Source: a bacterium
Lineage (GTDB): Bacteria; SM23-31; JAUVVT01
Assembly: GCA_030616165.1 (NCBI GenBank)
Contig: JAUWXV010000017.1
Location: forward strand, 1 to 29,305
Reading direction: 5' to 3'
Length of the DNA stretch: 29,305 bases
The notes beneath the pieces are model-generated. The model saw nothing but the letters and a program-made list of their open reading frames with translations, had not been told where the DNA came from and ran no database searches. The position numbers were made by a program, and so were the translations under genes. Positions 3,636 through 19,398 of this stretch are shown piece after piece. Every line of letters starts with the position of its first letter. Positions within the stretch are counted from its first letter, which is position 1.

Positions 3636-3935
3636 ATGAATCTTTGGCGTAAACCGCTGGATTTACAAGATATTAAGGTAGCTCGTGGTGAAATTCATAT
3701 TATTAAGGATCTATGCAAAGGTTGTGGATTCTGTGTAGAATATTGTCCGAAGGATGTGCTGGAGATATCTGAAGAGTTTAATACAAAGGGTTATCACCCA
3801 CCCTACATAAAAAATCCTGATGAATGTGTTGAGTGTCATTTATGCGAGATGTTATGTCCGGAATTTGCCATCTATGTAACGTTAAAAGAAGATAATAATG
3901 TGGTTAAGTCAGCGTCAGAGGAAGGAGGACAATGA
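3636..3935 (+). CDS. korD: 2-oxoacid:ferredoxin oxidoreductase delta subunit (2x[4Fe-4S] ferredoxin)
   Basis: This 99-residue ferredoxin has two complete cluster motifs, CKGCGFCVEYCP and CVECHLCEMLCP. It carries the insertion NTKGYHPP between them, which is characteristic of delta subunits of four-subunit 2-oxoacid:ferredoxin oxidoreductases. It would take electrons from the catalytic beta subunit and pass them on. It is the first gene of the operon, preceded by GAGGA before ATG 3636, and overlaps the next gene by four bases (ATGA). There is a single delta for two alpha/beta pairs, so both pairs probably share it. Confidence 0.9.
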   Translation: MNLWRKPLDLQDIKVARGEIHIIKDLCKGCGFCVEYCPKDVLEISEEFNTKGYHPPYIKNPDECVECHLCEMLCPEFAIYVTLKEDNNVVKSASEEGGQ

Positions 3936-5125
3936 AGACAGACCCAAAAGGGGTATTGGTCGGTTCTCATTATCTTAGTGGCAACCATGCATGTGCGGAG
4001 GGTGCTCTTTCAGCAGGATGTCGATTCTTGAGTGTCTATCCAATTATGCCTGCGCTTGAAGTATCTGAGAGATTCCTTGCGAGAGCAAAGGAAGTAGGTG
4101 CCACCTTTATTCAGATGGAGGATGAAATCTCGACCCTCGCAGCAGTTTTAGGTGCATCGTGGACAGGAAAAAAATCAATGACAGTAACATCGGGTCCAGG
4201 ATTATCTCTTATGATGGAAAATCTCGGGCTTGGTGTAATGTTAGAGACACCTTGTGTAATCGTTGATATTCAAAGCGTCGGCCCCGGTTTAGGGTTGCCT
4301 AACCGTCCATCTCAGGGTGATATGATGCAGGCACGATGGGGCTCTCATGGAGATTATGAAATCATTGCGCTTGCTCCAAGCTCTCCGCAAGAAATGTTTG
4401 ACTTCACTATTAAGGCATTCAATCTTTCTGAACACTACCGTGTGCCTGTTGCTGTGATGTCAGATGAGTATGTTGCTCATCTGAAAGAGAAAGTAGTAAT
4501 TCCTCCGGCAAATAAGATTGAAATTGAACCCCGCAGATATTATGAAGGTCCTAAGGATAGCTACTTGCCGTTTAAAAGAGACGAAGACCTGGTTCCTCGT
4601 ATGGTTGATATTGGTGAGGGATATAAATTTCATGTTACAGGATTAACCCATGATGACCGTGGCTATCCGATTATGAATGAAGAATGCCAGGAGTATAATG
4701 TTCATCCTCTGGTGTGGAAAATTCGTAACTATGTGGACAATATTATTGAAGTCCAGGAAGTTCACGTTGAAGATGCTGAAGTTATAATTATCTCTTATGG
4801 AGCAACTTCGAGGGCTGCACTCAAAGCGATGGAGCAGGCACGAAACTCCGGGATAAAGGTAGGAAGTCTCAAACTTGATACGGTCTGGCCCTTTCCTGAG
4901 AAACGGGTGGCAGAACTCGCAAAAAAAGTGAAAGCCTTTGCGGTCCCAGAAATGAATTTTGGTCAGATTGTTTTAGAAGTTGAACGATGCAGCTACGGAA
5001 ATGCAAATGTATTCTTTGTTCATCATGGAGAAAAAGGCGTTGAAAACACAGATAATATACTTTCTGCTGTCAAGCAAGCAGCGCAACAGAATTCAGTAAA
5101 AGATGGAATTATTGAGTGTGAATAA
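3932..5125 (+). CDS. korA: 2-oxoacid:ferredoxin oxidoreductase alpha subunit, copy 1 (substrate motif altered)
   Basis: This 397-residue alpha subunit carries the pyrimidine-binding and transketolase-C-like domains of the OFOR family. It is clearly paralogous to the protein at 5993-7234: both share QMEDE, TSGPG, DMMQ(A/S)RWGSHGDYEIIA and the C-terminal FPE/FPD...VPE(M/I)N(F/Y)GQI segments. The near-universal alpha-subunit motif YPITPS reads YPIMPA here (residues 36-41), so the threonine expected next to the TPP/substrate site is Met39. This suggests the copy does not form a normal active site by itself. It overlaps the ferredoxin gene at its start and is followed after 15 bases by an intact beta gene. 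Confidence 0.92.
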   Translation: MKTDPKGVLVGSHYLSGNHACAEGALSAGCRFLSVYPIMPALEVSERFLARAKEVGATFIQMEDEISTLAAVLGASWTGKKSMTVTSGPGLSLMMENLGLGVMLETPCVIVDIQSVGPGLGLPNRPSQGDMMQARWGSHGDYEIIALAPSSPQEMFDFTIKAFNLSEHYRVPVAVMSDEYVAHLKEKVVIPPANKIEIEPRRYYEGPKDSYLPFKRDEDLVPRMVDIGEGYKFHVTGLTHDDRGYPIMNEECQEYNVHPLVWKIRNYVDNIIEVQEVHVEDAEVIIISYGATSRAALKAMEQARNSGIKVGSLKLDTVWPFPEKRVAELAKKVKAFAVPEMNFGQIVLEVERCSYGNANVFFVHHGEKGVENTDNILSAVKQAAQQNSVKDGIIECE

Positions 5126-5140
5126 GCAAGGGAGTGTAGA

Positions 5141-5962
5141 ATGGAGACACTAAAGACCAAAAAGATGAAAGAAGTTCATCCGATGGAGGATGTGCTCCGC
5201 ATGAACAGGATTCCGCATATTTGGTGTCCTGGTTGTGGAATAGGTTTGGCTGTCACTGCTTTTGCCGCTGCTCTTGAAAAAGCAAAAATTGATTTGAACA
5301 AAGTAGCCATCGTTTCTGGTATCGGTTGTACTGGAAGGGTAGCAGGCTATATAAAACTTGATTCATTTCATACCACTCATGGTCGTGCCATTGCTTTTGC
5401 AACCGGGATTAAGGTTGCAAATCCTGACTTGAAAGTTGTCGTTTTTTCCGGCGATGGAGATCTAATTTCAATCGGTGGAAATCATTTCATTCATGCTGCC
5501 CGGAGAAATATTGATATGCTTGTAGTTTGTGTCAATAACTTTATTTATGCAATGACTGGTGGTCAGGTAGCACCAACAACACCACTTGCGGCGTATGCTA
5601 CAACTTGTCCCTTTGGGAGTGTTGAACCACCAATCAATATTCCATACTTAGCAGATTCTTCGGGTGCTGTATATGTGGCAAGGTGGACAACACTTCATAT
5701 TCGCAGACTTACCAATTCTTTTATCGAGGCGCTCGATAAGAAAGGATTTTCAGTAGTTGAGGTTATTTCACCGTGTCCACAGTATTATTCAAGGATTAAT
5801 AGATTAGGAGATGGACTTGATATGATGAAGTTTTATCATGATAATACAGAGATACGACATGGGGAGGATACAAAGAACCTCGATATTGGATTTCAGGGTA
5901 AGATTATAATGGGTAAATTTATTGACAGAGAGAGGCCAAGCTATACGGAACGGTTTGATTAG
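5141..5962 (+). CDS. korB: 2-oxoacid:ferredoxin oxidoreductase beta subunit, copy 1 (catalytically intact)
   Basis: This 273-residue beta subunit binds TPP and the proximal [4Fe-4S] cluster. All expected features are present: CPGC at 29-32 and C63 in GIGCTGR, the Mg-TPP motif GDGD at 104-107 with N132-N133 downstream, and a fourth cluster cysteine, C212, in SPCPQ. It is therefore competent for 2-oxoacid decarboxylation and electron transfer. The acid used cannot be told from sequence; 2-oxoglutarate, pyruvate and branched-chain oxoacids are all handled by close relatives. It sits between the two alpha genes, with GGGAG before ATG 5141. Confidence 0.93.
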   Translation: METLKTKKMKEVHPMEDVLRMNRIPHIWCPGCGIGLAVTAFAAALEKAKIDLNKVAIVSGIGCTGRVAGYIKLDSFHTTHGRAIAFATGIKVANPDLKVVVFSGDGDLISIGGNHFIHAARRNIDMLVVCVNNFIYAMTGGQVAPTTPLAAYATTCPFGSVEPPINIPYLADSSGAVYVARWTTLHIRRLTNSFIEALDKKGFSVVEVISPCPQYYSRINRLGDGLDMMKFYHDNTEIRHGEDTKNLDIGFQGKIIMGKFIDRERPSYTERFD

Positions 5963-5992
5963 TGGTTTTCTCTGAGATTAATGGTGGTGAAA

Positions 5993-7234
5993 ATGAAGGC
6001 TAATCCAAGGGATGTACTTACCGGTGTTCATTATATAGATGGTGATGTTGCCGCTGGGTATGGCGTTTTAGCAGCAGGATGCAAATTTGTTGCTGGCTAT
6101 CCAATTACACCATCTACCGAGGCTGCAGAAACGTTTGCACGCGTGGCTCCAAAAGGTAATGCAATGTTTATTCAAATGGAAGACGAACTTGCTTCAATCT
6201 CAGCTGTAATTGGTGCATCCTTTGCAGGAGTGAAGTCGATGACCATTACTTCTGGACCGGGTTACACTCTTATGATGGAGGCAATTGGATTTGGTGCAAT
6301 GTTAGAAACACCATTTGTTCTGCTCAATATCCAGAGAGGTGGACCCTCTACTGGAGTCCCAACCAAAACTGGGCAAGCTGACATGATGCAATCACGCTGG
6401 GGCTCTCACGGAGACTATGAAATCATAGCAATATCCCCTGATTCTCCTCAAGAATTGTTTGACTATACTATAAAGGCGTTTAATTTGGCAGAAATGTATC
6501 GTTGTCCTGTTATGATTATGTCGGATGAATGTGTTGGTCATATGACTGAAAAAGTAGTTATACCCCCGGCAGAAGAAATTGAACTTGAACCCAGAAGATT
6601 GTATAATGGTCCACCGGGCGAATATTTGCCATTTAAGCCGGATGGTGATTTCATTCCGAAAATGGTAAAAGCAGGTGCTGGCTATAACCTATATATTTCT
6701 GGACATGTGCATGATGAAAGGGGCTACCCGGTTACCAATGAGGAATTTAAATCAGTTTATTTAAGACGCCTTGTCGACAAGATTAGACGCAACAAAGACA
6801 AAATTATTGAACTTAAAGAAGAAAATACAGATGATGCTGAGGTGATTGTTGTATCCTATGGAATTTCGTCGAGGGTTGCTGTAAGAGGAATAGAAAAGGC
6901 ACGAGAAAAAGGCATAAAGATTGGCAATCTGAGACTTGTGACCGTCTGGCCATTTCCTGATGAGAAGATAATTGATCTTGCCAAAACCACGAAAGCATTT
7001 GTCGTACCAGAGATAAATTATGGGCAGATAGCATTTGAGGTTGAGAGATGCTGTCATGGCAGGGCAAATGTTGTACTCGTTCCTCATAGTGGGGCAGGAG
7101 TTCATAATCCAGATGATATATATGATGCAATCGTATTTGCAGCAAAAGAAAAAAAGAAGATTGAAGGAATTGTAGAATATAAAACAAAACTGGAGAAATT
7201 GGTTTTCGAAGGAGGTTTCAAATTAAAGGAATGA
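5993..7234 (+). CDS. korA: 2-oxoacid:ferredoxin oxidoreductase alpha subunit, copy 2 (intact motif)
   Basis: This 413-residue alpha subunit retains the canonical YPITPS at residues 36-41, unlike copy 1. An upstream in-frame ATG at 5981 exists. Start 5993 is preferred because MKANPRDVLTGVHY lines up with the start of copy 1 and GGTGGTGA precedes it. Domain content and length match copy 1 throughout, so the two arose by tandem duplication of an alpha-beta pair. The stop overlaps the next gene's start (ATGA at 7231). It may supply the active alpha half-site to the intact beta subunit encoded just upstream, but pairing cannot be read from the sequence. Confidence 0.92.
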   Translation: MKANPRDVLTGVHYIDGDVAAGYGVLAAGCKFVAGYPITPSTEAAETFARVAPKGNAMFIQMEDELASISAVIGASFAGVKSMTITSGPGYTLMMEAIGFGAMLETPFVLLNIQRGGPSTGVPTKTGQADMMQSRWGSHGDYEIIAISPDSPQELFDYTIKAFNLAEMYRCPVMIMSDECVGHMTEKVVIPPAEEIELEPRRLYNGPPGEYLPFKPDGDFIPKMVKAGAGYNLYISGHVHDERGYPVTNEEFKSVYLRRLVDKIRRNKDKIIELKEENTDDAEVIVVSYGISSRVAVRGIEKAREKGIKIGNLRLVTVWPFPDEKIIDLAKTTKAFVVPEINYGQIAFEVERCCHGRANVVLVPHSGAGVHNPDDIYDAIVFAAKEKKKIEGIVEYKTKLEKLVFEGGFKLKE

Positions 7235-8043
7235 GCCCAATTATCAATGCTTTTGCTCAAGGCATAAAAAAATCGGGGGTCAAACCCGCTGAGGTCTGTG
7301 TCCCCTCAGATATTCCATTTGAACCGAATGTTGTAAAACAATTGGGAGTCGATTATTTCCATACAATTCGGGGCAGGGCTATTGTATTTGGCACTGGGCT
7401 CAAACTGGCTAATCCTGCTTTAAAAGTAGTTCCGGTTGTAGGTGACTTGATGACTCTGGGTGGAAATCATTTTGTGCATGCTAGCAGAAGGAATATGGAA
7501 CTCTTGGTTATATGTGTGAATAGTTTTATCTACAAAAAAATTGGAGGTAAATCTGTTCCTTCGACATCACCTGTATTTTCACTATACTCAACATTTGAGG
7601 AACCGTTTAATATTCCACATCTTGGTAACTCATGTGGTGCAATATATACAGCACGGTGGACAGCCTTGCATACTGATGAACTTGTCAATTCTATCGCCGA
7701 AGCTTTAAATAAACGAGGTTTATCTGTGATTGAGATTTTGGCACCAGGTCCTGATTACTATACTGGAATTAATAATATAGATTCTAACTTGGTGAAGTTC
7801 TACCATAAAAATTCAGAGATAAAAAACAATGAAGATCCAAGGAATGTAGGCATTATGCCTGATGAGAATATTGTAGTGGGTAAATTTACGGATAAGGAGA
7901 GACCAACATTTATTGACGTCTATAATGCTCAATTGAGTAAAGTAATTGGTGATAAATTTACACCGTATGGACCTGTGCCGACATCCCGGACCGGTGCCGG
8001 TCTCGGGACAGGAAAGAATGAGTCAGGAGGCAAAGATGGCTGA
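7231..8043 (+). CDS. Degenerate beta-like subunit of 2-oxoacid:ferredoxin oxidoreductase, copy 2 (predicted inactive)
   Basis: This 270-residue paralogue of the beta subunit at 5141-5962 keeps the fold signature (FHT.RGRAI, GGNHF.HA.RRN, NIPHLGNSCGA.Y.ARWT, YYTGIN, GKFTDKERPT). It lacks the N-terminal WCPGCG. The GIGC segment is replaced by VPSDIP. The TPP motif is reduced from GDGD to a single GD (71-72), the downstream NN is N97-S98, and the fourth cluster cysteine is Gly173. All four cluster ligands and the TPP motif are thus missing, yet the gene is full length and open. A structural or regulatory role is more likely than decay. It has an extra Gly/Ser-rich C-terminal tail overlapping the next gene by 8 bases. 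GGAGG lies 16 bases before ATG 7231. Confidence 0.88.
   Translation: MSPIINAFAQGIKKSGVKPAEVCVPSDIPFEPNVVKQLGVDYFHTIRGRAIVFGTGLKLANPALKVVPVVGDLMTLGGNHFVHASRRNMELLVICVNSFIYKKIGGKSVPSTSPVFSLYSTFEEPFNIPHLGNSCGAIYTARWTALHTDELVNSIAEALNKRGLSVIEILAPGPDYYTGINNIDSNLVKFYHKNSEIKNNEDPRNVGIMPDENIVVGKFTDKERPTFIDVYNAQLSKVIGDKFTPYGPVPTSRTGAGLGTGKNESGGKDG
7984..8008 (+). other. GC-rich stem-loop just before the gamma-subunit gene
   Basis: TCCCG-GACCGG (7984-7994) pairs with CCGGTC-t-CGGGA (7997-8008), with one bulged T. It lies in the 3' end of the inactive beta gene, about 16 bases upstream of the AGGAGG site for the next gene. It is far more GC-rich than its surroundings and encodes the unusual PVPTSRTGAGLG tail. 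It could adjust translation or mRNA stability of the gamma subunit, or be an inserted repeat core. Confidence 0.5.
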
Positions 8044-8581
8044 AATCAGGTTTGCAGGTTATGGAGGTCAGGGCATCATAAAGTCGGGTATAATTGCTGG
8101 AAAGGCTGCCTCTATCTATGACAATAAGTTTTCTACTATGAGTCAATCCTTTGGTCCAGAAGCACGAGGTGGTGCTTGCAGCTCCCAATTAGTTGTGTCG
8201 GAAAGCAAAGTGCTGTATCCCTATGTTACCAAATCAGATGTCCTCGTTGCTATGTCCCAGGAAGGTTATAATAAATTCGAATCCGAATTAAGTGAAGAAG
8301 GAATACTCTTGATTGATGAAGACCTGGTAAAACATAAACCACCTCGTGGCAAAATCAAGATTTACTCTATCCCTACAACACGGTTTGCTGAACAGCTCGG
8401 GAGAAAAATTGTTTCAAATGTCGTAATGCTTGGATTCTTCACTGCGGTTACCAATATTGTAAGCTATGAGGCTATGAAAAAAGCACTTCCTGGATCTGTT
8501 CCTGAAAAGGCGTTAGATTTGAATATGAAGGCATTTGAAAAGGGGTATGAATATGGCAAGCAAAAAGTCAAAATCAAGTAA
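8036..8581 (+). CDS. korC: 2-oxoacid:ferredoxin oxidoreductase gamma subunit
   Basis: This 181-residue gamma subunit begins MAEIRFAGYGGQGI, the family's usual N-terminus. It contains SFGPEARGGACSS, the conserved loop that contacts the alpha/beta core (domain III of one-chain PFOR). Start ATG 8036 is chosen because AGGAGG (8025-8030) lies five bases before it and because it matches the family start; the frame is open further upstream but without similarity. One gamma gene serves both alpha/beta pairs. It overlaps the preceding gene by 8 bases and the following one by 29 bases, so translation is probably coupled. Confidence 0.92.
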   Translation: MAEIRFAGYGGQGIIKSGIIAGKAASIYDNKFSTMSQSFGPEARGGACSSQLVVSESKVLYPYVTKSDVLVAMSQEGYNKFESELSEEGILLIDEDLVKHKPPRGKIKIYSIPTTRFAEQLGRKIVSNVVMLGFFTAVTNIVSYEAMKKALPGSVPEKALDLNMKAFEKGYEYGKQKVKIK

Positions 8582-10508
8582 GACGACCGGTTCAGATAGT
8601 AGTATTCAGGATTTTTTAAATGAGAAAGGTGTCACAATACAATTTCCAGAAATCTGTGATAGTTTTCCTATACAAGAAATAACAATGTCATCATGCCGGG
8701 TTGCATGCCCGGCTGGTGTGAACATAAAAGCCTATCTCGGTGCAATCACGCGGGGTGATTTTCAAAGAGCCCTCGAGATTGTTAAAGAGACTAATCCCTT
8801 GCCTGGTATATGCGGAAGAGTATGTACACACCCTTGCGAATCTGAATGCCGTAGAGGTGAGTTCGAAGATCCACTCGCAATATGTGCACTTAAACGATTC
8901 ATTGCTGATTACGAACTCAAAAACGGCTCAAAAAATATCGAACCCTGTAAAAGAACAAAGAAAGAAAATGTTGCAATAGTAGGTTCAGGTCCAGCAGGTC
9001 TTACCTCAGCTAATGATCTTGTAAGAATGGGATATGGCGTGACTATTTTTGAGGAACTGCCTGTTGCTGGTGGAATGTTGATTACAGGCATTCCTCCCTA
9101 TAGGTTACCGAGAGATATAATTCAGGCTGAGATTGACAATATAGTAAAACTTGGTGTTGAACTGAAGACGAATACAAAAGTCGACAATATCGACGATTTG
9201 TTCAAACAGGGCTATAAAGCGGTGTTTCTTGCAATTGGTGCGCATGAGGGGCTTAAGTTAAAGGTACCTGGTGAAGACGAGTATGAGGGTATTGTTGACT
9301 GTATCAAGTTCCTCAGGAAAGTAAATCGCGGTGAGAGGGATAAACCCGGTGAAAGAATCATTGTCATAGGCGGTGGAAATTCGGCGATTGATTCAGCAAG
9401 GAGTGCACTGAGGTTAGGATGCAGTGAGGTTTATATTGTATACAGAAGGTCGCGAAAAGAAATGCCCGCGAATGAGGATGAGATAAAAGAAGCAGAGGCT
9501 GAGGGTGTGAAGATTAATTATCTTGCTGCGCCTGTCAGGATCATAGGGAAAGATGATAAGGTTACTGGCATGGAGTGCACAAAAATGAAGCTTGGTGAAC
9601 CTGATCAGTCTGGCAGAAGAAGACCAATCCCAATACCTAGTTCAGAATTTGTAGTTGAGGCAGACACCATTTTGTCTGCAATTAGTCAGAAACCATATAT
9701 TTCTTGCTTCAAAGATTGTGGGATTAAAATCACAAAATGGGATACATTTGAGGTTAATGAAAAGACTCTGATGACATCAAAGCCAGGTGTTTTTGCAGGT
9801 GGTGATGCAGTCACTGGTCCAAGCACCGTGATCGATGCAATCGCAGCAGGACATCGTGCCGCGCATGCAATTGATCGATACATATGCGGTAAGCCACTCG
9901 AAAAGGAAAAGTCACCGGAAATAGTTCAGAGAGAGTTAACTCCTGATACGTTTTCTCCAGAGCGAGCAACACGTCTTAAGGCAAAAAAAATACCAATTGA
10001 GAAACGAGAAGACTCATTTGCTGAAGTCGAATTGACGTTAAATGAAGATGAGGCTGTGCGTGAAGCAAAAAGGTGTCTGCGGTGCGGTCCCTGCGTTGAA
10101 TGTATCCACTGTATTAAGGAATGTGAAAAAAGAATGTTTGGTATCTCAACCGACAAAGGAAAAGAATTATTGATGGTGCACGGACTTCCAAAAAATATAA
10201 AGTTAACAGAAGAAGTAAGTGCCATGCTTAATGTAAAAGGCAAAGTTGCTGCAGAAGTAAGGATAGAACCAATTGTATCTGAGGTGTCCGAAGAGATGTG
10301 CCGCGGTTGTGGTCAATGCGAAAGTGTATGCAACTATTCTGCGATTAAAGTTGAGGAAAAAGAGGATGGTTTGAGAATTGCTCATGTTGATGCAGCCATC
10401 TGTAAGGGATGTGGAACTTGCGCTTCAGTGTGTCCAACCGGTGCATCTCACTTAAGCCTTTTCAAGAGCAAAGATATTGAAAAAGAACTGGAGGGCTTTT
10501 TTGGCTAA
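8553..10508 (+). CDS. GltD-like FAD/NAD(P) oxidoreductase with C-terminal ferredoxin domains
   Basis: This 651-residue flavoprotein resembles the glutamate synthase small subunit and NfnB. It has an N-terminal cysteine-rich cluster domain (C48, C52, C87, C91, C95, C99). The FAD-binding GSGPAG is at 144-149, an NAD(P)-binding GGGNSAID at 273-280, and the second FAD motif GVFAGGD at 412-418. The tail has CLRCGPCVECIHCIKEC (508-524) and two ferredoxin motifs, CRGCGQCESVC (583-593) and CKGCGTCASVCP (617-628). It probably exchanges electrons between NAD(P)H and the ferredoxin-type clusters of the neighbouring oxidoreductase/Hdr proteins. ATG 8553 is preferred over TTG 8535 because AGGGG lies at 8541-8545. 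In context it is an electron-input or output module, not glutamate synthase, since no large subunit is present. Confidence 0.9.
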   Translation: MASKKSKSSKTTGSDSSIQDFLNEKGVTIQFPEICDSFPIQEITMSSCRVACPAGVNIKAYLGAITRGDFQRALEIVKETNPLPGICGRVCTHPCESECRRGEFEDPLAICALKRFIADYELKNGSKNIEPCKRTKKENVAIVGSGPAGLTSANDLVRMGYGVTIFEELPVAGGMLITGIPPYRLPRDIIQAEIDNIVKLGVELKTNTKVDNIDDLFKQGYKAVFLAIGAHEGLKLKVPGEDEYEGIVDCIKFLRKVNRGERDKPGERIIVIGGGNSAIDSARSALRLGCSEVYIVYRRSRKEMPANEDEIKEAEAEGVKINYLAAPVRIIGKDDKVTGMECTKMKLGEPDQSGRRRPIPIPSSEFVVEADTILSAISQKPYISCFKDCGIKITKWDTFEVNEKTLMTSKPGVFAGGDAVTGPSTVIDAIAAGHRAAHAIDRYICGKPLEKEKSPEIVQRELTPDTFSPERATRLKAKKIPIEKREDSFAEVELTLNEDEAVREAKRCLRCGPCVECIHCIKECEKRMFGISTDKGKELLMVHGLPKNIKLTEEVSAMLNVKGKVAAEVRIEPIVSEVSEEMCRGCGQCESVCNYSAIKVEEKEDGLRIAHVDAAICKGCGTCASVCPTGASHLSLFKSKDIEKELEGFFG

Positions 10509-10944
10509 AAACTTTATTCCAAAAATTGTTGCTTTTTGCTGCAACTGGAGTACCGCTCCTGTTGTTAATAAAGCAGTAGAATCAGATGCTCAATTTCCGC
10601 CAAATATAAAAATTGTGAAGTTGATGTGCGGTGGAATGGTCACTCTGGCTTTTATTCTGAAGGCATTTGAGTTAGGTGCAGATGGTGTTTTTGTGGCGAC
10701 GTGTCGTGTTGAGGACTGCCACTACGTCACTGGTGCGCGCAGGGCAGTTGATGTCTGCGACAATACTAAGAAACTTATAGATATGCTCGGGTTTGAGCCA
10801 GGTAGGTTTAAACTGGGAAGGTTTTCTTCACTTGAACATAAAGTATTTGAAAAGGCGATAAACGAATTCATTGGTGTAATTAAAAAAATGGGACCTTCTC
10901 CAATCAAAGTGCAGCGCAGAACTACTGCAAGCACAAGTAGGTAA
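10501..10944 (+). CDS. mvhD: MvhD-like [2Fe-2S] electron-transfer protein
   Basis: This 147-residue protein is homologous to MvhD, the small [2Fe-2S] protein that links an electron donor to HdrA. Matching segments are AFCCNW, PPNIKIVKLMCGG, ELGADGVFV and the ATCRVEDCHYVTG cysteine pair. The usual CNWCS motif is CNWST here, so one commonly conserved cysteine is serine (residue 17), with an extra cysteine at 13. A second, canonical MvhD domain is fused to HdrA downstream. TTG 10501 is taken as the start because GGAGGG at 10490-10495 precedes it at good spacing. It overlaps the GltD-like stop by 8 bases. Confidence 0.85.
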   Translation: MAKNFIPKIVAFCCNWSTAPVVNKAVESDAQFPPNIKIVKLMCGGMVTLAFILKAFELGADGVFVATCRVEDCHYVTGARRAVDVCDNTKKLIDMLGFEPGRFKLGRFSSLEHKVFEKAINEFIGVIKKMGPSPIKVQRRTTASTSR

Positions 10945-10946
10945 TC

Positions 10947-12086
10947 ATGATTAGTTTAAAGTCAGCAATAAAGAATTCAAAGGCATATCTGTGCCTTGAA
11001 TGTGGTAAGTGTACCAGTGTCTGTCCGGTTTCAAAATTTAATAAAGGATTTTCACCTCGGGTATTAGTTAACAGAACGTTGCGCTATTCAGAGAATGATA
11101 TCTTGACCAACAAAAATATCTGGGCGTGTCTTACCTGTGCCATGTGTGATCTTCGTTGTCCTGCTGATATAGCATACATTGATTTGACGCAGGCAACACG
11201 TCTTGAGGCGCAAAAACTGGGTGAAGAGGCAATTTGTTCGCACGGTGGTGCGGCACAAGCTATGATGCGCATTATGACTGCAACGAACCTTCAGCAGAAA
11301 CGGATGGACTGGGTCGATAATGATTTGAAAGTAGCAGAGAAAGGTGAGGTTCTATATTTTGTTGGTTGTCTGCCGCATTTTGATATTTTGTTTAGTGATA
11401 AAGGTGTTCACACTATACGGAATGCGAAGTCAAGTGTGAAGATTCTCAATTATCTTGGCATTACACCGGCAGTCATGCCGCAGGAGCGCTGTTGTGGGCA
11501 TGACCTGCTCTGGAGTGGTGATATGGAAAACTTTAAAAAATTGGCAGAGTACAATATTAATGAAATCAAAAAGACCGGAGCAAAAAAGGTCGTATTCTCG
11601 TGTCCAGAAGGCTACAGGACATTTAAGATTGATTATCCAAAATATTTTGATGTGGACTTTGAGGTGCAGCACATTACAGAGTTGCTGAGGGATGCCATAA
11701 ATGAGGGGAAATTAAAGTTCAGGGAAATTGACAAGGTGATAACGTTTCAGGACCCATGCAGATTAGGTAGGCACCTTGGTATATACGATGCACCGAGAAA
11801 GGTCTTGTCATCGATACAAAAGTTAAAACTTACTGAGATGCAAAGAAGTAAAAAACGTGCGGTTTGTTGTGGAGTGAGTGCATGGATGAACTGTTCATTC
11901 TACTCTAAGAGAATCCAGATGCTGAGGTTGAAAGAGGCAAAGGAAACTGGCGCTGAACTATTTGTGTTATCATGTCCAAAGTGTGAAATCCATTTTAATT
12001 GTGCCATGAAAGAAGAAGAGGCAAGAGATGATATCAAAATTCCAACTGAACAATTGGTCACATTTGTTGCAGATGCACTCACGTGA
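10947..12086 (+). CDS. Fused HdrC-HdrB (HdrD-like) iron-sulfur protein with two CCG domains
   Basis: This 379-residue protein joins two functions. Residues 1-90 form an HdrC-type ferredoxin domain with CLECGKCTSVCP (C16-C26) and CLTCAMCDLRCP (C61-C71). Residues 130-379 hold two cysteine-rich CCG domains. The first has C141, C182-C183 and C219. The second has C271, C307-C308, C343 and C346, a complete CXnCCGXnCPKC motif. In heterodisulfide reductases such motifs bind the noncubane [4Fe-4S] clusters that split disulfides. The real substrate in bacteria is usually unknown and may be a thiol/disulfide or a quinone-like carrier. No membrane segment or heme-b partner is seen, so it is likely soluble and bound to HdrA, encoded next. 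Confidence 0.9.
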   Translation: MISLKSAIKNSKAYLCLECGKCTSVCPVSKFNKGFSPRVLVNRTLRYSENDILTNKNIWACLTCAMCDLRCPADIAYIDLTQATRLEAQKLGEEAICSHGGAAQAMMRIMTATNLQQKRMDWVDNDLKVAEKGEVLYFVGCLPHFDILFSDKGVHTIRNAKSSVKILNYLGITPAVMPQERCCGHDLLWSGDMENFKKLAEYNINEIKKTGAKKVVFSCPEGYRTFKIDYPKYFDVDFEVQHITELLRDAINEGKLKFREIDKVITFQDPCRLGRHLGIYDAPRKVLSSIQKLKLTEMQRSKKRAVCCGVSAWMNCSFYSKRIQMLRLKEAKETGAELFVLSCPKCEIHFNCAMKEEEARDDIKIPTEQLVTFVADALT

Positions 12087-12150
12087 TTGTTATGTTAGAG
12101 AAGAATGTTGTTGAAGAATTATAATATTTAGTCAAAAAAAGGAGTCTTTA

Positions 12151-12189
12151 ATGAATATACTGATAGCAATTACAAAGGGGGGTGATTAG
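12151..12189 (+). CDS. Possible 12-codon leader ORF directly abutting hdrA
   Basis: ATG 12151 has a good site (AAAGGAG, about six bases before it) and reads MNILIAITKGGD, then TAG whose last base is immediately followed by the hdrA ATG. hdrA has its own GGGGGGTGA site inside this small ORF. It may be a leader peptide coupling translation to the selenoprotein, or chance. No homology can be claimed. Confidence 0.25.
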   Translation: MNILIAITKGGD

Positions 12190-14613
12190 ATGCCGCAGGA
12201 TGATTTAAGGATAGGTGTTTTTGTTTGCGATTGCGGAACAAATATAGCCGGTTCAGTCGATACAGATGCACTCGTAGAGGAAGCCAGGAAAATGGACAAT
12301 GTTGTCTGTTCCATAAAGAATCGCTATACGTGTGCTGAACCTGGACAGCAGGAAATAAAAAAAGCAATAAAGGAGCACAAGCTTAATAGAGTTGTGGTTG
12401 CTTCTTGTTCGCCGAGGATGCATGAACCAACATTTCGTGGATGTGTTTCTGAAGCCGGTTTGAATCCTTATCTTGTTGATATGGCAAATATCCGTGAGCA
12501 GTGTTCCTGGGTACATATGGGTGACCGTGAGGCAGCTACTAAAAAGGCAGGGGATACTATCAAGGCATATGTTGCACGAGCACGATACCTTGAACCTCAG
12601 GAAGAAAAGGAGATTGCGGTAAAACAATCAGCACTTATTATAGGTGGTGGTGTAGCAGGAATACAGGCAGCGCTCGACTTGGCTGATGCAGGCTATAAAG
12701 TGACATTGGTTGAAAAAGAACCATCGCTGGGTGGATTAATGGCGCAACTTGATAAGACCTATCCAACAATGGATTGTTCGATATGAATTCTCGCACCGAA
12801 GATGATGGATGTCGGTCGACATCCAAACATAAACCTGTTAACATACAGCGAAGTAGAATCAATATCCGGCTATATTGGAAATTTTCACGTTAAGGTACGT
12901 AAGAAGGCAAGGTATGTATATGAAAACGAATGCACTGCTTGCGGCGACTGCACCAAAGTCTGTCCTGTGATTGTGCCTGACGAGTTCCAACAAGGATTCT
13001 CATCGCGTAAGGCTATTTATATTGCATTTCCTCAAGCAGTACCATCTTCATATCTAATCAATATGGACAACTGTCTTGGAACAAATCCAATTGCCTGCGG
13101 TAAATGTGCAGAAAAATGTGAAAAGAAATGTATTGACTATGACATGAAGGATGAGAGCGTTAAGTTCGATGTCGGTGTGGTCATAGTTGCAACCGGAATG
13201 GATGTTTTTGACCCCACACCGTTAGATGAATACGGTTATACAAAATATGAAAATGTAATAACAAGCATGGAGTTTGAACGTCTCATCTCTGCAGGAGGAC
13301 CTTCGGACGGTCACTTCATACGACTAACTGATAGTAAAAGACCCGAGACTGTTGGTTTTATACAATGTGTTGGTAGCAGGTCAGAGAAATATGGTAATCC
13401 ATATTGTAGCAATATCTGTTGTATGAACACGATCAAAGACACGCTCCTGCTTAAAGACCACTATCCTGATATTGAAGCAAAGGTATTCTACATTGACATC
13501 AGGGCATTTGGAAAGGGATTTGAAGATCTGTTCAGGCGCAGTAAAGAGGCTGGCATAACATATATCAGAGGTATTCCGGGTGAGATTTTTGAGGATCCCA
13601 AGACACGCAACTTAAAGGTGATGGTTGAGGACACAACTGCGAATAAGATTGAAGAACATGAATTTGATATGTTCGTGCTCTCTGTGGGTGTAACACCAAG
13701 ATTTGACATGCCGGAAGTCCAGCAGCTTCTCACACTCTCGAAAACTTCCGATGGTTTCTTTATGGAGGCTCATCCGAAACTGAAACCGGTTGATGCTCCA
13801 ACTTCTGGAGTATTCTTTGCCGGCTGTGCTGAAGCACCAAAGGATGTAAAGGATTCAGTGACACAGGCAAGTGCTGCAGCAGCACGTGCTGAAACAGTGC
13901 TCTCAGCAGGCAAGGTTAAACTCGAAGCAATCACGTCAACAATTAATACTGACTTATGCCGTTTCTGTGCAGTCTGTGCTAAGGGATGTCCGTTCAATGC
14001 AATCTCTGTTAATCCAAAGAAGAAGACAATTTCCTATGTTGAGGCATTGTGTAAGGGATGCGGAACTTGTAGTGCTGATTGTCAGTTTAATGCAATAACA
14101 ATGAAACATTTCACTGATGAACAAATCATAGCACAGATTGATGCTTATCTCGAAGAAGACCCATATAGTAAGGTTATTCTATTTACCTGTAATTGGTGTT
14201 CTTATGCTGGTGCTGATACATGCGGACTCGCACGATTGCAATATCCTCCAAATCAACGTTTGATTAGAACAATGTGTAGTGGTCGGGTTGATGAAAAATT
14301 CGTACTGCATGCGTTTAAGAATGGTGCGCCAATGGTAGTTGTATCAGGATGCCACTATGCTGACTGCCACTATATCGATGCAAATCGACAGACACAGAAG
14401 AGAGTTGAGAAACTTTGGGATAAATTTGAGAGACTGGGAATTCGACCGGAGCGGCTATTGCTTGAGTGGATCAGTGCAGCTGAAGGTCAAAGGTTTGCCA
14501 AAATCATGCGGGATAATGAAGAATTAAGAAAGAAAGTAACAAAAAAAGAGATTGAACACACCATTAAAGTATTAACTGAAGAAGAGGAGAAAAAAAAAGC
14601 AAAGAAAAAGTAA
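12190..14613 (+). CDS. hdrA: HdrA-MvhD fusion, selenocysteine-containing (UGA at 12784-12786)
   Basis: This 807-residue flavin and iron-sulfur protein is read through an in-frame TGA as selenocysteine 199. It has an N-terminal HdrA domain (cysteines near 13-15, 48 and 73), the FAD site IIGGGVAGIQAA (150-161), and the Sec segment DCSI-U-ILAPKM, where cysteine homologues have CSxCIL. A central ferredoxin region (CTACGDCTKVC near 251) and two C-terminal [4Fe-4S] motifs (CRFCAVCAKGCP near 590, CKGCGTCSADC near 621) follow. The last part is a canonical MvhD domain (CNWCSYAGAD near 666 and GCHYADCHY). HdrA is the flavin-based electron-bifurcating subunit of heterodisulfide reductase complexes. The sequence on both sides of the UGA is collinear HdrA in one frame, and a SECIS-like hairpin follows. 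If the UGA were a stop, a 198-residue fragment without clusters would result. Confidence 0.93.
12806..12825 (+). promoter_or_regulatory. Bacterial SECIS-like hairpin for HdrA selenocysteine
   Basis: TGGATGTC (12806-12813) and GACATCCA (12818-12825) form a perfect 8-bp stem with loop GGTC (12814-12817). The GGU in the apical loop starts 27 bases after the UGA, within the spacing known for bacterial SECIS elements. It resembles the loop of the formate dehydrogenase SECIS. This would recruit SelB with Sec-tRNA to 12784-12786. Confidence 0.85.
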
Positions 14614-15455: not shown

Positions 15456-15504
15456 CATTTTAAAATGTAAAATATAATTTAATTATCAGTAAATGGAGGG
15501 AATA

Positions 15505-16137
15505 ATGCCCAAAAAAAGAGACAAAAAAATCGACAAAAAGCATCAGCTGTCCAGGCGTAGTTTTCTTAAAGGTGTGGGTAGTGGTGCTGTTACTGCGGCG
15601 GTTATTCCATCTTCAATTGCAGCTATAAAAGCAAAAGAGACTATTTCTTTTCAGGAAACTGGTGTTGAAAAGGAAGTCGTAAACCTTATTATTAATGGCA
15701 GAACTTATAATGTGGAGGTTGAAGCAAGAGAAATCCTTGCAGATACCCTTCGAAAGAGACTGAACCTTACCGGGACGAAAATAATATGTGGTCAAGGTGC
15801 TTGTGGTGCATGTACGGTTTTAGTTGATGGAATACCGATTTATTCTTGTATAACCCTTACTATGGATGTCAACAATAGAGATATTACCACAATTGAAGGA
15901 TTGGCATCTGACGGAAAACTTCATCCCGTTCAGGAGGCGTTCATAGAAAAAGATGGAATGCAGTGCGGATTCTGCACCTCTGGTCAAATTATGTCGGCAG
16001 TTGCCCTGCTGAAAAATAATCCAAATCCTGCCCTTGAAGAGGTTAAACTTGGTATGTCAGGAAATCTATGCAGATGTGGTGCATATCCAAAAATTTTTGA
16101 ATCAGTCCTTGCGGCTGCAGAAAAGGGAAGGAGGTGA
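15505..16137 (+). CDS. Molybdenum hydroxylase [2Fe-2S] subunit, Tat-exported
   Basis: This 210-residue small subunit of the xanthine dehydrogenase/aldehyde oxidoreductase family carries two [2Fe-2S] clusters. The plant-type cluster uses C95, C100, C103 and C115 (CGQGACGACT). The second uses C154, C157, C189 and C191 (CGFC...CRCG). The N-terminus has a twin-arginine signal, SRRSFLKGVG at 16-25, followed by a hydrophobic AVTAAVIPSSIAA stretch, so the assembled enzyme is probably exported folded, with the other subunits carried along. An earlier in-frame ATG at 15493 is less likely because GGAGGG (15495-15500) sits just before 15505. It is the first gene of a three-gene operon. Confidence 0.93.
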   Translation: MPKKRDKKIDKKHQLSRRSFLKGVGSGAVTAAVIPSSIAAIKAKETISFQETGVEKEVVNLIINGRTYNVEVEAREILADTLRKRLNLTGTKIICGQGACGACTVLVDGIPIYSCITLTMDVNNRDITTIEGLASDGKLHPVQEAFIEKDGMQCGFCTSGQIMSAVALLKNNPNPALEEVKLGMSGNLCRCGAYPKIFESVLAAAEKGRR

Positions 16138-16142
16138 TTGTT

Positions 16143-18410
16143 ATGACAAGAGGTTTTAAAATTCCAAAAAGGGTAACAACTGAAATAGATTTTGAAGGTG
16201 AAGTTATCAAAATCGATGCCGAAGTGCCAGAACAAGAACCCGAACCAATTCCCGAAGATAAAAAACTCAATATTATTGGTAAAAAAGTCCCTCGAATTAA
16301 TGGTGAGGAGATAGTTACAGGAAAAGCAAAATATGCATTCGATATAAATTTACCAGGAATGCTCTATGGAAAAGTGCTGCGCAGTCCACACCCACATGCC
16401 AATATTTTAAATATTGATATGAGTAAAGCAGAAAAACACCCGGGAGTCAGGGCTGTTATAAATTTGAATAAAAAAAATGTAAGGTATGTAGGTGAAGAAA
16501 TAGCCGCTGTAGCTGCCGTAAATGAAGAAATAGCAGAAGAGGCTCTTGACTTAATAGAAGTAGAATATGAGAAACTGCCATTTGTTGTAAATATAAACAG
16601 AGCAATGGAGCCTGGTGCACCCAGGGTTAGTCCAGATGGAAATATTTCTAAGCCAAGAACAAGAGAAAGAGGGAATATAGAAGATGGCTTTAAAGAGGCG
16701 GATGTCGTTCTTGAAAGAACATACAAAACACAGGTTGAAGTTCATAACTGTGCAGAAGTTCATGGAAGCGTTGCTAAATGGGATGGAGAAAAAGTAACTG
16801 TCTGGGATACAACGCAGGCAACTCACGGAGTCAGAAGGTCTTTAGCAAAAACACTTCAACTTCCAGAAAGCAATGTAAGAGTGATAAATCATTACATGGG
16901 GGGAGGATTTGGAAGCAAATTGGGTTTAAATGTTCACACTGTTGCTGCAGTAAACTTATCAAAAATAGCTGGGGCGCCCGTGAAAATTATGCTGACCAGA
17001 AAGGAGGAATCATACTGTGTTGGCAATCGTCCTGGTACTATTCAGACTTTAAAAGGAGGAGCAAAAAAAGATGGGACTATTACTGCATTTCATTATAAGT
17101 CACACAACAATGGTGGAGTTGGTAGTGGTGGTTCCAATGCATCGCCAATTTGGGATATGTACCAATGTCCGAACTGCCTGATTGAAGAGTCAAGTGTATA
17201 TACCAATACAGATGCTTCTCGTCCGATGAGGGCTCCCGGATATCCTCAGGGGACATTTTCAGTGGATTTGTTTTTGGATGAACTGGCAGAAAATTTAGGT
17301 ATGGACCCATTGGAATTGAGAAGGAAAAATTATACAACTAAAAATAGGGGAGGGACCGGAACCCCTTATTCAAGTAAAGGGCTTGATAAATGCTACGAAT
17401 TGGGTGCTCAAAGAATAGGGTGGAACAGGAGAAATAAAAAACCTGGTGAAGGAAAAGGACCAATAAAAAGAGGTATAGGAATGGCAAGCGAAATATGGGG
17501 AGGCTCCGGCGGTCCGGGAACACAATTAGATTTCAGACTTATTACGGATGGTGTGGTAGAGATAAGATGTGGTACACAGGATATAGGTACAGGAACATAT
17601 ACTATAATAGCACAGGTCGCAGCCGAAGAACTTGGAATCGACATTAAAGATATAAAAGTTATGATTGGTGATTCTGATTATCCGCGTTCGGGCTCAAGCG
17701 GTGGAAGTAATACTGCTGCATCTGTGTGTCCTGCTATAAGAGCTGCTGCTGCCGATATTAAAGGGAAATTGTTTGCTATTGCTGGTCCTCTTTTAGGAGA
17801 AAATCCTGAAGAACTTGATGTCGGAGAAAGCAAAATTTTTGTCAGAAACAATAAATCAAAAAGTATTAGTTTTAAGGAAGCTTGTAAACAAATTACAGAA
17901 GGTATGCTGACAAGCAATGAAACGAGAGGACCGAATCCTAAGGGATATGCTTTTAGTACATTTGGAGCACACTTTTCCGAAGTAGAGGTCAATACCTTGA
18001 CAGGTAAGGTAAAAGTAATCCGCCATGTTGCAGCACATGAAAGTGGAAGAAGTATAAATATATTGACATCCGAAAATCAAATTCAGGGTGGGACTGTTCA
18101 GGGTTTGAGTTATGCCTTTTTCGAACAGAGAATTATGGATGAACAGACTGGAAAAATGATTAATTCAAATTATTATGATTACAAAACACCAACCGCTATG
18201 GATACTCCGCAGATAGAACCGATTATTATCGATTCAGTTGACCCCGTATTAAACAATCTTGGTATGAAAGGATTGGGTGAACCGCCAAGGATACCATCAC
18301 ATGCCGCTATGGCAAATGCAATTTACAATGCAATTGGGGTTTGGATACGGGAACTTCCTATTACTCCAGATAAAGTGCTTGCGGCTCTTGAAGAAAGAAA
18401 GGAGGGTTGA
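16143..18410 (+). CDS. Molybdenum hydroxylase large (molybdopterin-binding) subunit
   Basis: This 755-residue catalytic subunit hydroxylates an aldehyde or N-heterocycle using water-derived oxygen at a molybdopterin centre. Landmarks are the family start GKKVPRINGEEIVTGKAKYAFD, the cofactor loop YMGGGFGSK, RAPGYPQGTF, and GMKGLGEPP near the C-terminus, which carries the conserved catalytic glutamate (about residue 713). ATG 16143 follows AAGGAGGTGA at 16128-16137. GTG 16134 in the same frame overlaps that site and is rejected. No signal peptide is seen; export would depend on the small subunit. The substrate is not determined; periplasmic aldehyde oxidoreductases are the closest fit by architecture. 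Confidence 0.93.
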   Translation: MTRGFKIPKRVTTEIDFEGEVIKIDAEVPEQEPEPIPEDKKLNIIGKKVPRINGEEIVTGKAKYAFDINLPGMLYGKVLRSPHPHANILNIDMSKAEKHPGVRAVINLNKKNVRYVGEEIAAVAAVNEEIAEEALDLIEVEYEKLPFVVNINRAMEPGAPRVSPDGNISKPRTRERGNIEDGFKEADVVLERTYKTQVEVHNCAEVHGSVAKWDGEKVTVWDTTQATHGVRRSLAKTLQLPESNVRVINHYMGGGFGSKLGLNVHTVAAVNLSKIAGAPVKIMLTRKEESYCVGNRPGTIQTLKGGAKKDGTITAFHYKSHNNGGVGSGGSNASPIWDMYQCPNCLIEESSVYTNTDASRPMRAPGYPQGTFSVDLFLDELAENLGMDPLELRRKNYTTKNRGGTGTPYSSKGLDKCYELGAQRIGWNRRNKKPGEGKGPIKRGIGMASEIWGGSGGPGTQLDFRLITDGVVEIRCGTQDIGTGTYTIIAQVAAEELGIDIKDIKVMIGDSDYPRSGSSGGSNTAASVCPAIRAAAADIKGKLFAIAGPLLGENPEELDVGESKIFVRNNKSKSISFKEACKQITEGMLTSNETRGPNPKGYAFSTFGAHFSEVEVNTLTGKVKVIRHVAAHESGRSINILTSENQIQGGTVQGLSYAFFEQRIMDEQTGKMINSNYYDYKTPTAMDTPQIEPIIIDSVDPVLNNLGMKGLGEPPRIPSHAAMANAIYNAIGVWIRELPITPDKVLAALEERKEG

Positions 18411-18414
18411 TGAT

Positions 18415-19398
18415 ATGAAAAATTTTACTTATATCAATGCAAAATCTATAAAAGATGCGGTTGAATCCCTCGGTAAAAACTGGAATGAATCCGTGGTGAA
18501 AAGTGGCGGGACTGACCTTTTAGGTGAATTGAAAGGTATGATTATATCTCCTGAAAAAGTTATCAATCTTAAAACGATCCCGAATCTTGATTATATAGAA
18601 TCAACACAGGATGGTGGATTGAAAATAGGTGCTGTGACAACTATTACTAAAATATCAGAATCTTCTCTTATTAAAACAAAGTTTCCTGTTATTTCACAGG
18701 CAGCATCGAAAGTAGCGAGTCCACAACTTCGAAATATGGGCACTCTCGGCGGAAATCTTTGCCAGAGACCAAGGTGTTGGTACTATAGGGAAAATAGTAT
18801 CTTATGTTTAAAAAAGGGTGGTTCCCAGTGTTATGCATTTACCGGCGAAAATAAATTTCACTGCATATTTGGAGGTGGACCTTGTTTTATAGTTCATCCA
18901 TCTGATATGGCTGCTTCTCTTATATCATGTGATGCTGAGATTAAAATCTACGGGCGAAAAGGTGAAAGGGAATTAGAATTGAATAATTTTTATCTCTTAC
19001 CCAGGGAAAACGTAAATAGAGAAAATGTTCTAAATCCTGATGAAATCGTTGTTGAAATAATAATTCCCCCTCCCAAAAATAATACAAAAAGTATTTACAT
19101 TAAACAAAGTATTAGAGAAACTTGGGATTTTGCATTATGCAGTGTTGCTGTTTCAATGAGCATGAGCGGTTTGAAATGTGATGATGTCAGGATTGTTTTA
19201 GGAGGAGCGGCACCTAAACCTTGGCGTTCAATTAATGCTGAAAATGAGTTGAGAGGGAAAATGATTACCGAAACGGTTGCAGAATCAGCCGCTAAGGCAG
19301 CAGTTAATAATGCACAGACTATGAGGGATAATAAATATAAAATTAATCTATTCCAGAATATTATTAAAAGTGCAATTCTTGAAGTTATAAAAAGTTGA
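18415..19398 (+). CDS. Molybdenum hydroxylase FAD subunit with predicted [4Fe-4S] site
   Basis: This 327-residue FAD-binding subunit has FAD motifs KSGGTDLLGELK (29-40) and NMGTLGGNLCQRPRCWYYR (108-125). It contains a cysteine-rich insertion (C121, C131, C139, C157 as likely ligands; also C116 and C150). This matches the extra [4Fe-4S] site in PaoB-type periplasmic aldehyde oxidoreductase subunits. Electrons would pass from molybdenum through the two [2Fe-2S] clusters to FAD and then to an unknown acceptor. Start ATG 18415 has GGAGGG at 18401-18406. The upstream open frame overlaps the large subunit and is not coding. It is the last gene of the operon, followed by an AT-only hairpin. Confidence 0.9.
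   Translation: MKNFTYINAKSIKDAVESLGKNWNESVVKSGGTDLLGELKGMIISPEKVINLKTIPNLDYIESTQDGGLKIGAVTTITKISESSLIKTKFPVISQAASKVASPQLRNMGTLGGNLCQRPRCWYYRENSILCLKKGGSQCYAFTGENKFHCIFGGGPCFIVHPSDMAASLISCDAEIKIYGRKGERELELNNFYLLPRENVNRENVLNPDEIVVEIIIPPPKNNTKSIYIKQSIRETWDFALCSVAVSMSMSGLKCDDVRIVLGGAAPKPWRSINAENELRGKMITETVAESAAKAAVNNAQTMRDNKYKINLFQNIIKSAILEVIKS

Follow-up and report, generated by a model that had tools for sequence, protein, structure and literature searches.

The stretch analysed here is 29,305 nucleotides long (contig JAUWXV010000017.1, assembly GCA_030616165.1); we call it the window and use its own coordinates. It carries the genes of a 2-oxoacid:ferredoxin oxidoreductase (OFOR) in the order delta-alpha1-beta1-alpha2-beta2-gamma. 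They lie on the plus strand, as do all features below unless noted, and are collinear and almost gapless, with all four alpha and beta genes full length. A first-pass annotation had described these four genes and the motifs that tell them apart, and every one of them is present where it was placed. It is a KorDABC-type OFOR with a duplicated alpha-beta unit and complementary losses in the two copies, and we think it likely that these losses have left one alpha2beta1-alpha1beta2 heterotetramer with a single active site.

The delta subunit (3636..3935, 99 residues) is a two [4Fe-4S] ferredoxin domain by Pfam Fer4 and Fer4_7; its top NCBIfam model is the delta subunit of 2-oxoglutarate:ferredoxin oxidoreductase, with a score under the cut-off. 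Alpha1 (3932..5125, 397 residues) is a PYR-type subunit in which the cis substrate residues are degenerate but the trans-donor loop is conserved, and alpha2 (5981..7234, 417 residues) has intact cis substrate and thiamine pyrophosphate (TPP) residues and a relaxed trans-donor loop. Both match POR_N and PFOR_II, and both pass PRK08659 (503 and 510 bits, cut-off 411). Beta1 (5141..5962, 273 residues) is by domain and motif analysis an intact Mg-TPP and [4Fe-4S] beta subunit. Beta2 (7231..8043, 270 residues) is a domain VI paralogue without the Mg-TPP loop, the cluster cysteines or the coenzyme A (CoA)/substrate loop. Gamma (about 8018..8581, 187 residues from the ATG at 8018) matches Pfam POR (PF01558, E 3e-33) and passes TIGR02175 with 84.4 bits against a cut-off of 81.1.

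Pfam and NCBIfam models thus confirm the family of every subunit, and none of the family-specific beta models reaches its cut-off with beta1. The best match of beta1 in the PDB is H. pylori OorB (8ys5_C, E 4e-57), and 8ys5 is second best for both alphas. The marks of a KorDABC-type enzyme are present in POR_N plus PFOR_II on both alphas, in gamma (POR) and in delta (two [4Fe-4S]); the mark of its beta subunit, an Mg-TPP motif with four cluster cysteines, is found in 32 of 32 copies of beta1 and is missing from 32 of 32 copies of beta2. At two other loci, L102 and L110, the delta gene sits between beta1 and alpha2 of the doubled set.

Conservation in the beta and alpha subunits

We compared 31-33 copies of each gene of the doubled set with 25 single-copy relatives, which keep every motif. 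In the window beta1 has WCPGCG, GIGC, GDGD, NN and SPC. The start of beta2 lies past the WCPGCG position, and beta2 has VPSDIP for GIGC, one GD, NS and APG. The same is true across the copies: the four cluster cysteines (CxxC, GIGC and a fourth Cys), GDGD and NN occur in all 32 beta1 and in none of the 32 beta2. The GDGD Mg-TPP motif (beta1 residues 104-107, 5450..5461) is also present in 25/25 single-copy betas, and the same two of its residues are deleted in 32/32 beta2, leaving in the window a residual GD at 7441..7446. Among 103 columns at least 90% conserved in the single-copy relatives, beta2 has lost 47 and beta1 only 3. The first-pass claim that the alterations fall exactly at cofactor sites is therefore right about those sites and too narrow for beta2 as a whole. 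The vacated pocket carries fixed replacements, Gly60 to Asp and His80 to Arg, in 32/32 copies. Beta2 is predicted to keep the OFOR beta fold, given a structure model with a predicted local distance difference test score (pLDDT) of 85.5 whose top PDB structural matches are OFOR beta subunits.

The alpha subunits have to be read against a structure. In StOFOR1 of Sulfolobus, alpha Thr256 and Arg344 hold the substrate carboxylate, and two residues contact the substrate tail, Thr349 from that same alpha and Asp468' from the other protomer's alpha (PMC5020499). By alignment these residues map to alpha1 positions 39, 115, 120 and 238, the last of which is the one donated in trans. The window has YPIMPA in alpha1 and YPITPS in alpha2. 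Alpha1 Met39 (4046..4048) is the equivalent of Thr256 (Thr31 in DaPFOR) and Ser115 (4274..4276) that of the carboxylate-binding Arg344 (Arg114), and the Thr349 equivalent is lost as well; the alteration at YPITP seen at first pass is real, but it is part of a larger loss. Alpha2 keeps Thr43 of its YPITPS (6107..6109) in 32/32 copies. At the trans-donor loop the roles are exchanged. Alpha1 has Leu238-Thr239 at the Asp468' position (4643..4648), invariant in 31 alpha1, and alpha2 has His242-Val243 (6704..6709) at the relaxed equivalent. Calling one alpha and one beta intact was thus correct for beta1, but alpha2 has lost conserved residues of the loop donated to the partner protomer.

Changes counted by Fitch parsimony in alpha1, alpha2 and the single-copy relatives are 12/0/0 at position 39, 6/0/0 at 115 and 4/0/0 at 120. 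At the trans position 238 they are 0/9/0, and at the adjoining 239 they are 0/12/0. Out of 131 columns invariant in the single-copy relatives, 13 vary in alpha1 only and 8 in alpha2 only, and if columns are taken as independent draws the chance of the four substrate positions falling in the observed pattern is about 5e-5. When the comparison is made over the 162 columns at least 90% conserved in those relatives, alpha1 has lost 19 and alpha2 11. The residue at the alpha1 Thr position is V, Q, M, A, P, E or R, reached by at least 12 changes; L025 (821-1987) and L109 (8825-9994) have YPIRP there, the oxalate oxidoreductase motif. YPITP is never found in both alphas of a doubled set, and the combination of altered and intact subunits is identical in all sets read, as expected of the fixed asymmetric set proposed at first pass.

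We believe this crossed pattern, which was overlooked at first pass, points to an alpha2beta1-alpha1beta2 heterotetramer, the only assembly that would predict it. Alpha2 has kept the cis residues and alpha1 the trans loop, so the active protomer would be beta1-alpha2 and its partner alpha1-beta2. An (alpha2beta1)2 homodimer would require the trans loop in alpha2 and is disfavoured because alpha2 has lost it; an active alpha1beta1 would require the cis residues in alpha1 and is disfavoured because alpha1 varies there. The residues argue against a symmetric tetramer with two active sites. The first-pass annotation had already paired beta1 with alpha2 and proposed one working TPP site and one dead one, which the crossed alpha conservation and the beta1/beta2 motifs support.

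One could argue instead that alpha1beta1, the pair suggested by the ancestral gene order, is active on a new substrate and that alpha2beta2 is dead or regulatory. Alpha1 does retain the TPP-activating Glu, and the YPIRP of L025 and L109 is a motif known from oxalate oxidoreductase (PMC5020499). However, seven residues and at least 12 changes at the Thr position are unlike a selected substrate pocket, and nothing would hold the Thr, Arg and Thr of alpha2 unchanged if its partner were a beta2 unable to bind TPP. We find this pairing improbable.

One alpha-beta duplication in a KorDABC-type enzyme was followed by complementary loss in the two copies, and the heterotetramer would be the outcome. 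In the assembly, which would include gamma and delta, beta1 would bind Mg-TPP and the proximal [4Fe-4S] cluster, alpha2 would supply the cis Thr, Arg and Glu of the active site, and alpha1 would supply the loop reaching in from the partner protomer, as in homodimeric OFORs. The alpha1beta2 half would hold neither Mg-TPP nor a cluster and would be retained to complete the tetramer and present the trans loop. Judged by family, the reaction would be 2-oxoacid plus CoA to acyl-CoA plus CO2, or the reverse, and electrons from the oxidation would pass from the beta1 cluster to delta and on to adjacent GltD/HdrABC-type proteins. Most likely, then, a symmetrical two-site enzyme has become four different subunits sharing one working site. 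The dead pocket of alpha1beta2 might also have been re-used, for example as a regulator or ligand site controlling the working site across the dimer interface, since alpha1 keeps the Glu and YPI.P and beta2 has its fixed Asp and Arg, although we regard this as rather doubtful.

Origin, selection and distribution

Each of the four genes is monophyletic in protein trees. Alpha1 and alpha2 are sisters (Shimodaira-Hasegawa approximate likelihood ratio test, SH-aLRT, 94), and beta1, beta2 and the single-copy relative L104 form one group (SH-aLRT 92). These trees indicate that the alpha-beta unit duplicated once. The beta2 stem measures 0.69 changes per column, that of beta1 0.12. Ratios of nonsynonymous to synonymous substitution (dN/dS), taken by a simple counting method from 16 close pairs that overlap one another, are 0.117 for alpha1, 0.124 for alpha2, 0.083 for beta1 and 0.137 for beta2. 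All four genes are under purifying selection, which agrees with the first-pass view of beta2 as a retained subunit. The faster-evolving pair is alpha1 and beta2, at 1.3 and 1.9 times the rate of their paralogues.

We searched GTDB species genomes with a beta2 query and then whole genomes with a beta2 profile, which gives undamaged beta2 316-490 bits and beta1 about 250-290 and also separates other OFOR betas. The species scan found 21 beta2 loci, almost all labelled WOR-3/Stahlbacteria or unclassified and one Latescibacterota. The doubled set is present at all of them with a long enough contig; in L015 the region upstream is fragmented, and beta1 is found elsewhere in that genome. Beta2 occurs in 26/147 genomes of the WOR-3 group, 4/80 of the Latescibacterota group, 3/82 of the group of L026, one in G007 and 1/6 in the window's own small phylum. 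The total is about 35 genomes with the doubled set in at least four phylum groups, from little-known anaerobic bacteria, and where a contig is long enough to judge, the four genes are almost always still side by side. We reject a pseudogene or assembly artefact on the basis of dN/dS and of recurrence in more than 30 doubled sets.

In the trees the window copy falls within the WOR-3 copies, whereas the other members of its small phylum carry single-copy relatives; horizontal acquisition of the cluster (3636-14613) is therefore probable. A genome of the same family contains a 72% match, over 163 residues, to another of the contig's genes, which makes transfer likelier than misbinning of a contaminant contig, though this is not proof.

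Several points weigh against the heterotetramer. The trans-donor residue was placed by a low-identity alignment to a single archaeal structure. Virtually every alpha1 copy still has YPI.P and the TPP-activating Glu (E65), which is more than a dead site would call for; the Glu may have a structural role or take part in communication between the sites. Whole-gene distance co-variation (mirror tree) favours alpha1-beta2 and alpha2-beta1, but the signal depends on the five sets that lie outside the WOR-3 group and disappears without them, and for that reason we dropped it as pairing evidence. Finally, two metagenome assemblies contain a damaged beta2. In L112 (3000-4400) it has two internal deletions and frameshifts and in L135 (4800-6300) one in-frame TAG, from either sequencing error or real decay. 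The first-pass expectation that beta2 is always kept holds in nearly all sets, and the two damaged copies weaken it without overturning it.

This damage, and the fact that alpha2 and beta1 are a slowly evolving and catalytically complete pair, would suit two separate enzymes, a catalytic (alpha2beta1)2 and an alpha1beta2 that forms its own complex or is a decaying leftover. Such a homodimer would still need the trans loop that alpha2 has lost and alpha1 keeps, the dN/dS values near 0.14 for beta2 and 0.12 for alpha1 speak of selection, and the genes stay together. We consider this explanation unlikely.

Neighbouring genes

Downstream lie a GltD-like NAD(P)/FAD protein with two extra [4Fe-4S] (8535..10508, PRK12771 528 bits, cut-off 516), an MvhD/FlpD-like [2Fe-2S] subunit (10477..10944, PF02662 E 3e-36), a protein identified by domain search as HdrC/B-like with [4Fe-4S] plus CCG domains (10947..12086), and HdrA (12190..14613). 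The GltD-like protein is likely the electron partner of the oxidoreductase, and with GltD and Hdr genes next to it the oxidoreductase may be coupled to NAD(P) and to Hdr-type flavin chemistry. HdrA has an in-frame TGA at 12784 (12784-12786) in the context DCSI-U-ILAPKM; relatives show the same HdrA split, and the selB gene of the genome scores over its cut-off. It is probably a selenoprotein of known kind with the TGA read as selenocysteine.

The first-pass annotation had suggested that the dead half serves mainly as a docking surface for these GltD/Hdr proteins, and the gltD and hdr genes do adjoin the set in the window and in many relatives. However, the gltD-hdrC-hdrA neighbours also occur beside the single-copy enzymes of L104, L126 and L128, and the doubled sets of L026, L109 and L111 are without an adjacent gltD. 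L104, the nearest single-copy relative, has mvhD as well, so the gene context is older than the duplication. Docking neither needs nor explains the duplication, although it may have come later; we reject it as the cause and think it very improbable as the main role of the dead half.

Two further features of the window may be mentioned. On the minus strand at 455-1724, fragments of a ferredoxin-like protein and of a histidine kinase resemble a single sensor gene that has been interrupted. Directly downstream of the cluster, at 15493-19398, is a three-subunit molybdenum hydroxylase of the xanthine dehydrogenase/CoxSLM type, whose small subunit has a leader like those of twin-arginine translocation (Tat).

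Comparison with known enzymes

Our searches of open-licence papers found no description of a doubled KorA/KorB or of an inactive OFOR paralogue, and automatic annotation as KorA and KorB would call both copies functional. Thiamine enzymes of the OFOR type have been studied as symmetric dimers, and the cross-talk of their two sites (alternating sites) is a long-standing question. If our reading is true, an enzyme that in nature pairs a working site with a dead one, and has done so for long enough to span several phyla, allows a direct test of communication between sites, and the surviving single-copy relatives with the same neighbours give a basis for comparison.

Substrate-specific models all score under their cut-offs, including those for 2-oxoglutarate (NF007206 340 vs 579; NF007207 243 vs 364). 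H. pylori OorDABC (PDB 8ys5) has the same delta, alpha, beta and gamma in a similar gene order apart from the doubling. Known enzymes of the OorDABC type are symmetric dimers with one kind of alpha, one kind of beta and two active sites, whereas the window set has two of each with complementary losses. The two-subunit S. tokodaii OFOR (PDB 5b46-5b48), in which a substrate residue is donated by the other protomer, is the source of our residue map (PMC5020499). Unlike the window set it has gamma fused to alpha and no delta, and it is a homodimer of heterodimers.

The Moorella oxalate oxidoreductase (PDB 5c4i) has the OFOR fold and, like alpha1, an altered Thr in YPITP (YPIRP), but it has a single alpha and beta and a fixed specialised motif. 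We exclude it as an identity for the window enzyme, which scores 68 (alpha1) and 58 bits (alpha2) against a cut-off of 500 and has YPIMP/YPITP rather than YPIRP. Phenylglyoxylate dehydrogenase, PadEFGHI, is an OFOR with a GltD-like flavoprotein subunit. It has one alpha and one beta rather than two of each, and it too is excluded by score (PadG 83 vs 700, PadI 45 vs 700, PadE 53 vs 300).

Paralogous heteromers can evolve from duplicated homomers, as in the fungal V-ATPase ring, where complementary degeneration makes both paralogues necessary. By duplication the doubled OFOR would likewise have gone from homodimer to obligate heteromer, with the cis and trans halves of the active site on different paralogues. 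It differs from the ring in being a TPP/Fe-S enzyme with one composite site that would be fed by three subunits.

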